Shown: positions 4,625 to 32,908 of the stretch, piece by piece
Position numbering within the stretch: position 1 is the stretch's first letter
Layout: every line of letters starts with the position of its first letter
NCBI RefSeq assembly: GCF_964355755.1
Contig: NC_092679.1
Coordinates: 15,428,932-15,492,931, forward strand
Source of the DNA: Antedon mediterranea
Lineage: Eukaryota; Echinodermata; Crinoidea; Comatulida; Antedonidae
Length of the DNA: 64,000 nucleotides
Direction: 5' to 3'
The notes under the pieces: model-generated
The model's input: only the letters and a program-made list of their open reading frames with translations
Told to the model about the DNA's origin: nothing
Databases searched by the model: none
Position numbers and translations under genes: made by a program

Positions 4625-7600
4625 ATGTCTGTATTTGGAAATGTTGTTCAAGTTAGATATGGCACTTATTATTACCAAGTATTTGTTCTCATATTATACG
4701 CTATATCGCCTGCGAACACCGATTCCGATTACAGTAAGTATAAATTGTCAAATACGTTGACCTAGGCCTAATTGTGTAGTAATTGCAATTACATAAAATA
4801 GTATTGTTTGATTTGTTCGTGGCCAGTGAAGGAAAGGAGCAGTTTTCTAACAAAAATTCCTTTATGGTTGCGGCACTGTAATTTGAATCTTCTAGAATTG
4901 AGAAGCAATGTACAATCGAGTTGAGTATGAAATTAATTATAGTCCAACGCGGAACTAATTTTCCTCTATAGAGAGATTTTCTAAAAGTACTGTACAGAAA
5001 ATAGATGTATGCATTTTCTTACTGCTATTTGGTACTGAATATAGTTTTACTCATTTTTTAATACTTTTTAATCCATCTGATACAGAAACTTAAGATTTCT
5101 TTTACAATCTATAACTTGTTGTGACGTCATCATTTGATCTATTATATAAAATTTTTTAATGCAGATGAAATTAATAATCATGACATTTTTTCTTTTATGC
5201 TTAAGGAATGGAACATATATACGGACAAGATATCCGTATCTGCCTACCAAGTTCATCTTGTGACAACCGATGCGGATCCATTTTGAATGGTGGAACCGCA
5301 AAATGCAGCTGCGATGCACAATGCTCAATGTTTAGAGACTGCTGCTACGATTTTACAGATAAATGCGAAAAAATTACCAGGACAGAAGTTCAAAAAGAGG
5401 ACATGTCCTTTAAAAAAAAGACAGAGTGTTTGAATACGGATTCAACCACAATAGATACGGGCTATCATGTTATTTCTAATTGCATAAACACAACAGAAGA
5501 AACAATCACTAGGAAATGTGAACATCCAGAACAACAGAAGATCATAGAGCAAATTCCAGTAACAGATCCTTATGGAAACGTTTATAGAAACTTTTATTGT
5601 GCATCGTGTCATGGCTTGCAGACTGCAGACTTAGTCGCATGGCGCATGTCTGTTTCTTGTGATGAAGGTGATGTTCACAAAGCATCCGATGACGACTCTA
5701 CAATAAGTATATCTAACGTTACGAAACACACGTTGCATGAGAAACTTCTTGGACAAGATGTATTCTGTCAATCATATAAATACACACCTCCAGTAGATAG
5801 AAAGCGACCACGTCCCTGCATGTTAGGAAAAGAAACCTGTCCATACGGCATCGTGGATGAACAGATTAAACTCGGTTGTTCTGCTTATTCCGCCACTGTG
5901 TATGTTGGTTCACAGCCTTATAAAAATCCACATTGTGTAATTTGCAATGGCTATTTAAATGAATACAGTTGTCAACAGGTACTGTTTAGAAAAGGGCCAC
6001 CTGGTCCAAAAGGTGAACCTGGTGAACCTGGTATCTTGGGTATTCCTGGTGAACCTGGTATAATGGGTCACGATGGATATCCTGGTTACACAGGTCAACC
6101 GGGTTTTATAGGACCACCTGGTCCAGAGGGTAGTCCTGGGCTGCCGGGTAAAGATGGTTCACCAGGATTACCAGGTCCACCAGGTTCACCAGGTCCACCA
6201 GGTCCAGATGGCGTTTCTGATTTAGAAAGTCAAGAAGGCCCTCCGGGTCCAGACGGTCCACCCGGTGTAAACGGCATCCGAGGCCCACCAGGTATACCAG
6301 GACTTCCAGGGCGTATGGGTTTGGTTGGAAACAATGGTGCTCCAGGATTAGATGGTGCAACTGGTTCAAAAGGTCCTCCAGGTGAAGAAGGTCGGTCTTG
6401 TTCATATCGGGGCCCTAGTCAAAGTAATCAATTTGAAGATCACCGAATTAGTCGCAGAGACATTCCTGAGACATGGAGTTTCTCTATTCAACCAGGCCAG
6501 CCTGGACAAAAGGGTTTTCCTGGTAGACCAGGGTATCCTGGCGCAAAAGGTGATGATGGTTTACCTGGTATACTTGGTGAACCTGGAAAACCTGGTCCAT
6601 CTGGGCCACCTGGTCTACCAGGCTTACCAGGTGCACAAGGCCAAACTGGTTTACCCGGTCCACCTGGTGAGCCTGGTATGCCAGGTGAGCCTGGTTTACC
6701 AGGTCTTACTGGTCCAATAGGTAAATCTGGTATACCTGGTGTAAAAGGGCAACCTGGTCCACAAGGTTTACCTGGTATACCTGGCTTCGATGGCTTCCCT
6801 GGTAAAAAAGGTATCAGAGGGTCAAAGGGTTTACGTGGTCCACCGGGTCGTCATGGTTCACCGGGACCAGATTGCCATTTTGATACACGCCTTGGTACAA
6901 AAGGGGACCGTGGTCCATTTGGTGAGCCTGGAATAAAAGGACACACTGGAGAAATGGGCTCCCTCGGTGCACCAGGTCTACCAGGTTTATCAGGTTCACC
7001 GGGTACACCAGGTTTACCGGGTCTACCAGGAAGACGTGGTCCACCTGGAAAACCAGGTTTACCCGGTAAACAGGGGCCAAAAGGTGCACCAGGTCCACCT
7101 GGTCGACCTGGGAACGGTAGGCCTGGTCCACCAGGTTTTCCTGGTGTACCTGGTTCAGATGGTGAAATTGGGTTACCAGGAAAGCCAGGCTCAAATGGTT
7201 TAGACGGTGAAACGGGTAGACCTGGCGTTCCCGGCCGTCTTGGGTTACCTGGTGAAGATGGTGACCCCGGGCAAGAAGGTCGTGTGCTTCCTTTTGTCCC
7301 CATTGGTCCTAATGGTTTATATCCAGATCTTGGTGGTTGCTCTGGTACATATTGTACAGGAACAGGAACGGGAACAGGACCTTCTTTCACGACGTTAGAT
7401 GTTCTCGTTAACTTTGAAAACGGTAAAATAAGCTTGAATTCTGAATATATTAAATATACTGAAAGTCCGATAATATGCAACACAAAGCAAGTGTACGATT
7501 TTATCAAGAAGGAATGTATAGACTTACAGTGCCGTGTTGGTTATACACTGTCTGCTGAAGCAACGTGTGTGCCTAGTCAGAATCCATTAAGGGATGATAC

Positions 7601-9841
7601 GCCTAACTTAGATATAAACAGACCTGCTTCACCTAAATGTAATAGCAAACCTCCAGGTATGCTATCTGAACTCTTCTGCTTGTGTCAAAGTAAGGAACAA
7701 ACTCTGAATGTAAATTATGTAACTGAAGATCCTAATTCTACCGAAGACAGCTTGATAGATCATTTGCTTGAAAGTACAGTAGGAACTGACATAATCGTTT
7801 TCGACCAGAATATATCGCCTAATCCATTCCTTAGCATGGATTTCATGACATCCGAATGTTTAGATATTGTTTATTTGTCGTCAGTTGTTACAAAATCGAT
7901 TTACGCTAAAAAAGGAATTTCTTTGGTAAACTTAGTACATAACTGCTTTGGAAACCAGTCCACAAACACTGAATGTGTCACTAACACAATGTCTGCAAAC
8001 AATTTGATAAATTTGAACGGTACAAGGACGATTCGAAACGACAAGAAATCAATACAGGTGCCACTTGATGGTTATACATTAGACCTGACCTTTGACATTC
8101 AAAATGATTCTAATGTATGCGTAAGTTTGACGCTGAACACATGTATTGATACTTCCGTTACGGGTTCTTGTCCATTGATTGAACTGGACTACAATTCATT
8201 TGTAATTCAAAGTAATAACACAACAATAATGCACCAGGCCACTGGAAAAGTATTCACTTCTGGAGAGTACAGTCTGACAGAAAATGACACTGTACTTGTT
8301 TGTTCGTTCTTCAATCAAAAAGCAGAACCGCTTACGACAGTTATATTTCTTTATTCTGACACACTACTAGTTGTGAATATGATTGGGGTTATTCTTTCTC
8401 TGATTGGTTTGTTCTTCACATTTACAATACGATGTGCAGTAAAAGAGCTGCGGACACATTCCGGAAGGATTGTAATGAACTTGTCTTTCGCACTTTTTAT
8501 CGCCCAGTTGTTTACTCTACTATTAGGTTATTTTCGTGGCAACGCGACAGCTTGTAGTGCGGCGGCGGCTTTTCTCCATTACATCTGGTTAGTAGCTTTT
8601 CTCTGGATGAACTCAATGGCAATCGATTTGTTTCGCATCTTAAATTCGATTCAGCTCACAGTTCGCGACACAGACCAGAACAGACTTATGTACAGAAGAT
8701 ACTTCCTGTACAGCTGGTGCATTCCAGCGGGTTTCGTCAGCATTCTTTCAGCCATCCAGTCTTCAGATTTCCCACGGTTTTACTTCAAGTATGGCGACGA
8801 ATCTGTTTGTTGGATTCGTGATGAATTTGCTAGTCTTATTGTGTTTGGGTTGCCGATCGCTTTGGTCATTATTGTCAATTTTGGTTTGTTCATCTGTATT
8901 ATATACAGGATTCGGAAAGTAAAACAGTCTACAGCCGAGATTCAGACGAACATATCAACAGGAAACAAGATATCAACGGAATTGAAAATATATATCAGGG
9001 TAAGCTTAAGTACATTCGGTAGAAATAAAATCATAATTGTATAAACAAATTGGTGACTCTGCATATGATACTACGTTATATCCAAAACAAATAAACAAAC
9101 AATGTAGTATATTTGCCACAATTGTTTTTACCGTACTGTATGGCTTTCTCAAATAATGTAAGATATTGGTGTTGGAATATTTCGCCTATTCAGTAGAATT
9201 CTTTGTTTCGACCTAATTTCACAAATGATCATTCCTTATTTGGTCTAAAATCTAACCTCTCACTTTTCCCTATATGCCTACATTATTACGCACTTCCGTA
9301 TCACAAACTTCTAATGTTGATTTACTAGTTAGTCATGGTTGTGGCATTGATCGAACGGCTACTTTGTAAGACATCTCAATGTTGACATCACTTCAGTTTC
9401 TAGAGAGAAAGAATTTGTCTCCAACTTTCCAGTAACCTCAAACAGTCTTTACAGCATTTTATTACAGCACATCTTTGCCATATTGCCGACAATGTTTTCT
9501 TTACTAAATCATAATGTTAGAAAATGAAGATTTCTTAGTTGCCCTAACTGTAAATGTGTTTTCTTGTCTTACAGATTTCCACCATAATGGGCTTAACTTG
9601 GACATTTGGATTCCTTGCCTCTTTCGTTGATCATATAGCAATCTGGTATATCTTCATTATACTCAACACGCTACAGGGACTGTGTATCACCATCGCATTC
9701 AACGCTAATCACAATATGTTGACGATACTTCGAAATCGTAAAGGTTTACACCAAAGTTCAACTGAAGAACATAAATTGAAATCTAGAAGTAGGTCCAATG
9801 AATCGAAACCTACAAAAGTGACAGACACTAACAACTTATAG
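4625..9841 (+). CDS. Somatomedin B-collagen-7TM (adhesion/Methuselah-like) receptor
   Basis: Three exons, 4625-4733, 5206-8999 and 9575-9841, join with matching phases and consensus GT/AG sites to give 1,389 residues. Exon 1 encodes a short basic N-terminus and a hydrophobic stretch ([12 protein letters not shown]) that reads as a signal peptide. Residues about 48-90 match a somatomedin B domain (CDNRCG, CSCDAQC, CCYDF). Two Cys-rich segments follow, including [10 protein letters not shown], as in Methuselah-like invertebrate receptors. Residues about 299-728 are Gly-X-Y collagen with three interruptions. A Cys-containing linker and a region of about 250 residues lead to seven hydrophobic segments (about 1080-1350). 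TM6 carries MGLTWTFGF and TM7 carries LNTLQG, both hallmarks of family 2 (class B/adhesion) receptors. I see no clear GPS cleavage motif. The cytoplasmic tail is short, basic and Ser/Thr-rich. It should be a plasma-membrane receptor with a collagenous ectodomain; ligand and coupling are unknown. Confidence 0.9.
5991..7284 (+). other. Collagen Gly-X-Y domain inside the receptor exon
   Basis: About 430 codons of Gly-Pro-rich triplets, built from GGT/CCA/CCT-type codons, lie in one uninterrupted exon. Interruptions occur at about 6211-6240, 6390-6500 (with one Cys and the dibasic RISRRD) and 6868-6900 (with one Cys). Collagen domains in known collagen genes are usually split over many exons, so this single-exon block is unusual. 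Confidence 0.9.
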
Positions 9842-10190
9842 GACCAAACTTTCTATCAATAAAAGTTTGAGAGAAGACAATATTGAAAGAAATTGACATT
9901 GAAAGTTATAAAACTATACTCGTGTGAACCGAGAGCTTACAAACTCGCTTGGGTTAATAGGTAATAAACCAGTAATAAACTTAACTTACGTCAAGCGAGT
10001 TTCGTCTAGCTAACAAACTTGACTTCGTCAGTTCATCTCTGACGAGAAGCTATAAGTTCATCTCTGACGAGAAGTTATAAGTTCATCTCTGACGAATCTT
10101 CATTCTTGTAGATTAAGAATTCTAGGTTAAGTCTCTTCTTTATTACAGCTTAGCTGATTTATTTATTTACAATTGTTTGTGTTTGTACAT
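9842..10190. repeat. Short 25-bp tandem repeat downstream of the receptor gene
   Basis: Three copies of a 25-bp unit starting GTTCATCTCTGACGAGAAG begin at 10031, 10056 and 10081. The receptor's likely polyadenylation signal, CAATAAAAG, is at about 9858. Nothing else coding is seen here. Confidence 0.7.
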
Positions 10191-31125: not shown

Positions 31126-31227
31126 GCACTTTGCAATGTAAATGTATTTATGGTATTCTCCAGTAACATTACATTGTTTGGGCATAACAGATATTGACTA
31201 AAATATGGTATACCAATTTATTTTCTA

Positions 31228-32908
31228 GTGGCATCTAACCAGGAGGTACAGATGTGTTCTACTCATAATCTAGAATTAGAGTTCTTCTGTTCAACTTGCA
31301 AGAAAGCTGCTTGCACAGAATGTGAGCATTTTCTGAATTGTCAGCAAAAACATAAAATGATTAAAATGAAGTATGCTATTGATAATTTTAACCAAGAGGC
31401 AACTGAAGTACTTAAAATAGCTGAAGAAGTTAAAAAGGATTTGGATGAAACCTTTTATTTGATTTCTGAACGTTCATCTCACTTCAAAGACCAAGCAGAG
31501 TTATGCAGAAAAGCTATTGAGGTTCAGGAGAAAAAACTTATCAAAGCGTTGAAAGAAAAAAGTAAGAGATTAATTTTGGAAATTGAAGAAAAGGAGACAA
31601 AAATGGAGGAGGGCACCACTGGTCAATTTAAAGATCTTGATGCAAAGAGAGCTCAGGTGAATGATGAAATTAAATCAGTCAAATTGATACTAAACAAACC
31701 AGTTGAAGCTAACACTCTTGCAAACTCCAAGACAAATACCATTGATATTAAAGATAAGGTTTGTGGTATTCATCAATCACTTCATGAAAGATGTATTGCA
31801 CCTAATTTTATCCCATCTACACATATAAATGATTTGATAAATCAAGATGGCATCGGTAAAGTTTCAATTGTTAATACAAATTACACAATTGCAGAATCAG
31901 ACAAACAATTTACTGTCATAAAGCAACGTGGATTTGAACTTAAAGTATCAAGTTTCAAAGAGGGCGTGATTACAGCTGTTTTCATTCCTGAATATGGTAA
32001 AAAATATGCCTCAATGATCAAACATAGGGGAAGGGGAGAGGAAAATATACCATGTAGATGTGATATTGAAGGTGATTGGCAGATAAAGGTAATGGCTGGA
32101 GATCATCAGGTTAAAGGATCTCCAGTGAATATCAAGGTGGAACCTCTTGGACTTGTGCATACCATTGATAACATTGCACAGACAGTATAAAGAGCATCAA
32201 AATGAGTATAAGGTCATGGATGTTGCAGTAGACAGGGATGGATGTATATTAGTATCAAGTGAGAGCAAAGAGATATTGAAGTTCGACCAATCAGGTAAAT
32301 TTAAAGGCAAAAAAGAGATGAGGCAAACTGTAAGGACAATGCATCAGATGAGTGATGGTAGAATGGTATTCACTGATGATACAACTTGTGTTACATTATG
32401 TGATGACAAGTTTCAAGAAATTCGCAAAGTTGGTGAAGGAACATTACAATATCCATTTGGCTTGACAGTTAACAAGGAAAATGGAGTCTTGTATGTATCT
32501 GATTGTAATGCTGATTGTGTTTACAAGTTTGGTTCAGAAAAAATTAAAATGGAAGAACCATGTCATATAACCTTGACTAAAGATGGCCATCTCATTGTCT
32601 GTGCCTATTACAATGACAGAGTATTAATTTTTGATGAAAATGAAAAAATAGCAAGAGAAATCAAAGGAACATTTACGATTATGGCACCTTTTGGTGTGGC
32701 AGTGGATAAAGAGGAAAACATTATAATATCAGATGATGGTGCAATAAAATTGTTTGATAAAAATGGTTGTTCTAAGAAGGGCACCTACATTTATAGAAAG
32801 TTAAGTTGGAATCGGGCCCGTCAAAGCATTTGTATAATCTCAAACAGACCACGAAAGATAGCAGTGTCTGACATCGTATCAAAAGATGTTAAAATAATTA
32901 ACTATTAA
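31228..32908 (+). pseudogene. TRIM-like copy E, start codon lost and frameshifted
   Basis: The acceptor TTTTCTAG is followed by TGGCATCT, where the paralogues have ATGGCTTC/ATGGCATC, so the A of the start codon is missing. Translation could still begin at the internal ATG at 31252, which matches the start of copy D. B-box, coiled coil and filamin are open to 32190. A four-base ACAG duplication (32178-32185) then shifts the frame. The NHL part is open from about 32147 to 32908 in the next frame and lacks a segment (NINNGDLLGKI in the paralogues). At best it makes a B-box/coiled-coil/filamin protein of about 312 residues without a propeller. Confidence 0.85.

Follow-up and report, generated by a model that had tools for sequence, protein, structure and literature searches.

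A crinoid gene joining somatomedin B, a long interrupted collagen region and a seven-transmembrane receptor domain

Can a seven-transmembrane (7TM) receptor carry a long collagen region within its own polypeptide chain, or does such an arrangement arise from two genes run together? The question is raised by a gene at 4625-9841 on the forward strand of a 64,000-nucleotide stretch of the genome of the crinoid Antedon mediterranea (NCBI RefSeq assembly GCF_964355755.1, contig NC_092679.1, positions 15,428,932 to 15,492,931). This whole stretch is referred to as the window, and it lies on the contig labeled C10 in a searched genome of 354 Mb and 18 contigs. An initial sequence-only reading proposed that one gene here joins a signal peptide, a somatomedin B (SMB) domain, about 430 residues of Gly-X-Y and a family-2 7TM domain, and named transcripts that end in the collagen or start after it, pointing to two genes or to a faulty join in the assembly, as what would refute it.

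One gene with three domains

The receptor gene consists of three exons (Table 1), which join to encode a product of 1,389 residues. A Pfam scan of this protein (E<=0.1) identifies SMB once, collagen in seven stretches (E 8.5e-60) and 7tm_2 at residues 1090-1339 (E 3.8e-28, exon 3 included), with no further family at this threshold. The order of parts is a signal-peptide-like start, SMB, a cysteine-rich region, interrupted collagen, a juxtamembrane ectodomain and 7tm_2. The signal peptide was assessed by eye from the hydrophobic stretch encoded in exon 1, with no predictor applied. The domain search with hidden Markov models that the sequence-only reading had called for matches all three of its domains, the collagen measures 431 residues, and transmembrane helices (TM) 6 and 7 are encoded in exon 3, as had been proposed.

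Exon 2 is a 3.8-kb exon inside the open frame 5205-9044, which has 1,279 codons. Because SMB, collagen and TM1-5 are all located in this one exon, their unusual combination is independent of any splicing assumption. The exon 2 acceptor at 5206 is pyrimidine-rich; a second possible acceptor at 5230 also preserves the frame, and the former is favored because it keeps a YGQD stretch that is similar, by eye, to the YG-D of the paralogues. The sequence preceding exon 3 is TTGTCTTACAG, and the nearest paralogue, L001, has an exon matching exon 3 (71% over 66 residues). Two neighboring genes do not explain the arrangement, since single open frames of paralogues align to exon 2 on both sides of the collagen and so hold both of its flanks. 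The concern over two genes or an assembly join, the latter being very unlikely, is thus largely answered without RNA by the single exon and the paralogue frames, and the SMB-collagen-7TM architecture in one gene can be regarded as practically certain.

The 7TM part resembles adhesion receptors. When the full profile is compared with PDB chains, ADGRL3 is nearest (E 1.9e-36), with a match that starts about 100 positions ahead of TM1, and structure matches of the 7TM part, using a model without TM6-7, list adhesion receptors first and secretin-family receptors next. Pfam gives no GPS or GAIN match in the window protein or in the 16 aligned members of its family described below (19 families listed at E<=0.5), and no Methuselah N-terminal domain in the window protein. 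The ectodomain model is of low confidence (ten-residue blocks with pLDDT scores of 33-82), and fold matches are essentially confined to the 7TM part. The ectodomain profile has no convincing match among PDB chains, and a model of the SMB and cysteine-rich region (pLDDT 73) has no significant Foldseek match.

Table 1. Features of the receptor gene, in window coordinates and residues of the joined product
Feature	Position	Strand	Description and basis
Exon 1	4625-4733	+	Start codon; hydrophobic, signal-peptide-like N-terminus; donor GTAAGT at 4734; joined frame open
Exon 2	5206-8999	+	SMB, cysteine-rich region, collagen, juxtamembrane ectodomain and TM1-5 in a single open frame
Somatomedin B domain	5256-5372	+	Residues 54-92; Pfam E 3.3e-7
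Cysteine-rich region	5373-5975	+	Common to paralogues; two C-x2-C-N/H-like stretches; alignment
Collagen region	5994-7286	+	Residues 300-730 (431 residues); 128 Gly-X-Y triplets in five blocks; Pfam and triplet count
Collagen blocks	5994-6218, 6237-6398, 6495-6872, 6894-7118, 7125-7286	+	25, 18, 42, 25 and 18 triplets
32-residue non-collagenous interruption	6399-6494	+	Cys435; RXXR sequence RISR (6444-6455, residues 450-453), furin-like, putative cleavage
7-residue interruption	6873-6893	+	First residue Cys593
GGCSGTYC	7332-7355	+	Residues 746-753 (Cys748, Cys753); fits FACIT motif GXCXXXXC
Juxtamembrane ectodomain	7380-8354	+	Beta-rich in low-confidence model; no GPS/GAIN match
7tm_2 domain, TM1-5 part	8364-8999	+	Pfam, genome search, profile and structure matches
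Exon 3	9575-9841	+	TM6-TM7, cytoplasmic tail; stop TAG 9839-9841; AG acceptor
AATAAA polyadenylation-type signal	9858-9863	+	Sequence motif

The collagen insert in its receptor family

The receptor family was assembled by searching the genome with TM1-5, which yields 22 matches including the window gene. Of the 21 others, 19 were retrieved (the two weakest were left out) and 15 of these were aligned, giving 16 family members with the window gene. The remaining four are a fragment with stops (L002), two loci with the frame split in two (L009 and L010) and one whose longest frame lacks the SMB region (L012); three more (L015, L016 and L019) were left out of alignment A3. Counting the window gene, SMB is present in 15 of the 16 aligned members and 7tm_2 in all 16. 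L001 lies about 85 kb from the window gene and pairs with it in the tree with support of 100/99; a long-branch warning applies to L011, L017, L018 and L019, and neither member of the pair is among the long end branches. The two are 52% identical in the SMB and cysteine-rich region, 46% in the juxtamembrane ectodomain and 69% in TM1-5. Their ratio of nonsynonymous to synonymous divergence (dN/dS) is about 0.21 in the SMB and cysteine-rich region and about 0.28 in the juxtamembrane part, both values being approximate since dS is near 1.6-1.8; in TM1-5, dS is saturated. By these ratios, the regions flanking the collagen on both sides are under purifying selection relative to L001.

At the site of the collagen, L001 has a degenerate Gly/Pro-rich linker, about 55 residues long, in which no more than three triplets follow one another. 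In the other 14 aligned paralogues no run anywhere exceeds two triplets, and no Gly-X-Y run was found by eye in the translated frames of L009, L010 (longest frame only) and L012. Two further observations concern the same family. Three very similar SMB-7TM copies at C10:1.70-1.72 Mb (L005-L007; L005-L006 dS 0.08-0.12) carry a Pro/Thr-rich spacer within the cysteine-rich region, another spacer confined to some family members. Between L001 and the window gene lies L002 (C10:15374500-15380500), where TM1-5 of this receptor type is present as a broken fragment and, by eye, a reverse-transcriptase-like frame runs on the opposite strand.

The five collagen blocks are separated by interruptions of 6, 32, 7 and 2 residues. 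The best single register contains 68 Gly across the whole region, compared with at most 63 in 20,000 shuffles, even though the interruptions shift the register; the chance of all Gly falling in one register within a block is 10^-13 to 10^-33, a figure given for illustration only because the blocks were picked as perfect runs. Pro occupies 52% of Y positions. True collagens favor Leu, Glu and Phe at X, and in the window gene these three residues occur 38 times at X and 8 times at Y. The bias is shared by six further collagen loci in this genome (90 at X and 17 at Y, pooled as the total minus L022), while the glycine minisatellite L022, set aside from the comparison, lacks it (23 at X and 42 at Y). 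This bias is that of real triple helices. L022 itself (C8:2536600-2538400) is a Gly-containing repeat that exceeds the Pfam collagen cut-off with no proline in its triplets, and it makes a handy false-positive control.

Tandem Repeats Finder reports nothing beyond short arrays, with units of 9 and 18 bp and, in a single case, 6 bp. A recent minisatellite expansion was rejected, as no internal DNA copy among the 30 of 46 listed (threshold 60%) is more than 74% alike to the reference. Given the X/Y bias and the shortness of the tandem arrays, the collagen is best described as diversified sequence rather than recent satellite. Among the matches listed in the genome, only the window gene gives a full-length collagen match. 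Genome searches with 7tm_2 and with collagen scored 150 candidates each, and among their listed matches, for 7tm_2 a part of the total, no second 7tm_2-collagen pair was seen by eye closer than about 145 kb. Within this scope the architecture is unique in the genome, as it is among the aligned paralogues, and it may be lineage-specific, as the sequence-only reading suggested. Identity to the next-best collagens of the genome is 44-50% for the top rows and 25-60% across the matches listed. Because two unrelated in-register Gly-X-Y strings of the same composition would be expected to be 46.6% identical, no donor collagen is identifiable. Searching NCBIfam returns only bacterial collagen-like adhesin models far under their cut-offs, which were taken as an effect of composition. 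From the family alignment, a single member of this NvX/PARF1-like SMB-7TM family appears to have gained the long stalk, by growth or by insertion, and the L001 linker may be a precursor or a decayed remnant of it. Elsewhere in the genome, open frames with collagen are repeated in large tandem arrays at C3:3.38-4.08 Mb and C5:25.60-25.62 Mb; by eye, L020 and L023 in the C3 array and L024 elsewhere on C5 have frames ending in a C1q-like domain.

A predicted trimer and its alternatives

What would such a stalk do? With its X/Y bias and its own set of cysteines, the insert makes trimerization plausible, and three receptor chains are rather likely to be held together through a collagen rod whose 384 helical residues, at the triple-helix rise of 0.286 nm per residue, would measure about 110 nm. 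Secreted fibrillar collagens begin folding at their C-terminal end; in the window collagen this end lies toward the membrane, which is where folding would begin. Three chains would wind together from this membrane-proximal end, with a possible lock at Cys748/Cys753 and possible additional cross-links at Cys435 and Cys593. All four cysteines lie in or beside the insert and have no counterpart in L001. Three 7TM receptors would form one complex, its three SMB heads carried by a kinked rod. The rod would provide reach and avidity and relay tension in the matrix, or the clustering of ligands, to the 7TM domains. These would then signal through G proteins, like relatives of the same class.

Several points weigh against a trimer of this kind. 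No dedicated trimerization domain was recognized in the Pfam and family scans, Pro at X is fairly low at 19%, and Pro at Y stabilizes the triple helix mainly if it is hydroxylated. Three seven-helix bundles per trimer may also be sterically awkward. The GGCSGTYC motif is placed 15 residues past the last perfect triplet, and GXCXXXXC also occurs once among the 15 collagen-free paralogues (in L013), so that it is weak by itself. A genome search with the motif stretch and the juxtamembrane ectodomain gives eight matches besides the window gene, none of which extends into GGCSGTYC. GXCXXXXC is described as required for FACIT trimerization in the available part of PMC10381214, and a role of the window motif as a trimerization lock is suggestive only.

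The RISR sequence in the longest interruption allows another use of the collagen, in which its main purpose is a released fragment: cut at this RXXR or at another site, the chain would set free SMB with part of the collagen and leave a shortened receptor behind. The membrane collagens XIII, XXIII and XXV are indeed shed by furin at RXXR sites, according to the accessible portion of PMC4678570, but RISR is a minimal motif only, and because the juxtamembrane part has an RXXR of its own (residues 977-980), the pattern is not collagen-specific; this explanation seems unlikely. A homotrimer might also fail to form, with Gly-X-Y acting as an extended spacer or entering a heterotrimer with secreted collagen chains that anchors matrix to the receptor. 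The low Pro at X and the want of a recognized trimerization domain would suit this, but 128 triplets, four interruptions and a true-collagen X/Y bias are hard to account for without helix formation, failing which Gly loss would be expected, and we judge this reading quite improbable. An artefact of gene model or assembly, be it two genes or a mis-joined collagen, is scarcely credible: the solitary full-length collagen match would fit it, but the 1,279 codons contain no stop or frame break, paralogues carry both collagen flanks in single frames, and the Gly/Pro-rich linker of L001 sits at exactly the collagen site.

With the homotrimer preferred, a broader proposal can be put forward tentatively. 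The G-protein-coupled receptor would itself be a collagen, an obligate class-B-type trimer with SMB heads held about 110 nm out that senses matrix tension or multivalent ligands, its stalk having arisen within a local cluster in which one paralogue lengthened a short Gly/Pro-rich linker. Class B receptors carry many adhesion modules, and a built-in triple helix would impose a stoichiometry of three and keep the ligand-binding head at a rigid and measurable distance from the 7TM domain. Such a receptor would lend itself naturally to asking whether the class is activated by forced trimerization or by tension. Together with the short linker of L001, it would also offer a case of a long collagen arising inside one exon of a non-collagen gene.

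Surroundings and comparison with known systems

Downstream of the receptor gene, at least five TRIM-like frames follow one another at 14050-36349 on the forward strand of the window. Four have B-box and/or NHL or beta-propeller matches, one of these with a filamin match below cut-off. The frame at 31198-32908 is split in two, and its first part, which has no Pfam match, was grouped by eye.

Collagen is familiar to adhesion receptors from the outside: GPR56 reportedly binds collagen III, and GPR126 collagen IV, as ligand. Their 7TM domains are related to that of the window gene, but collagen is an external ligand there and part of the receptor chain here. The accessible part of PMC12716839 names collagens solely as ligands of adhesion receptors, no collagen-7TM receptor was met in the available portion of PMC13197933, and none was found in full-text searches of open-access literature aimed at such a receptor.

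The closest likeness in domain content is to NvX of Nematostella and PARF1 of the planarian Schmidtea, which the available text of PMC3261222 describes as lineage expansions with SMB, usually one, on an adhesion-like 7TM domain. Amphioxus likewise has an expansion of SMB adhesion receptors (PMC2246102, from the part available). The window gene shares a single N-terminal SMB and 7tm_2 with NvX and PARF1, a likeness drawn from domains and not from direct sequence comparison. The feature that sets it apart from these and from the amphioxus receptors is the interrupted collagen region of 431 residues; the word 'collagen' is absent from the main text of PMC3261222 and PMC2246102.

On the collagen side, the MACIT collagens XIII, XXIII and XXV are, like the window gene, membrane-anchored, with an interrupted triple-helix region, cysteines and RXXR, and Caenorhabditis elegans COL-99 is reported as trimeric (PMC4678570, in its accessible portion). 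They are single-pass type II proteins, however, whereas the window collagen lies N-terminal of a 7TM domain with its C-terminal end toward the membrane. FACIT collagens such as IX have GXCXXXXC near the C-terminal end of the collagen, a pattern that the window protein shows 15 residues beyond its last perfect triplet; they are extracellular and fibril-associated and carry THBS or vWA domains (PMC10381214, in the part available), neither of which is matched by Pfam in the window protein. The window gene is a known kind of receptor with an unusual combination of domains.

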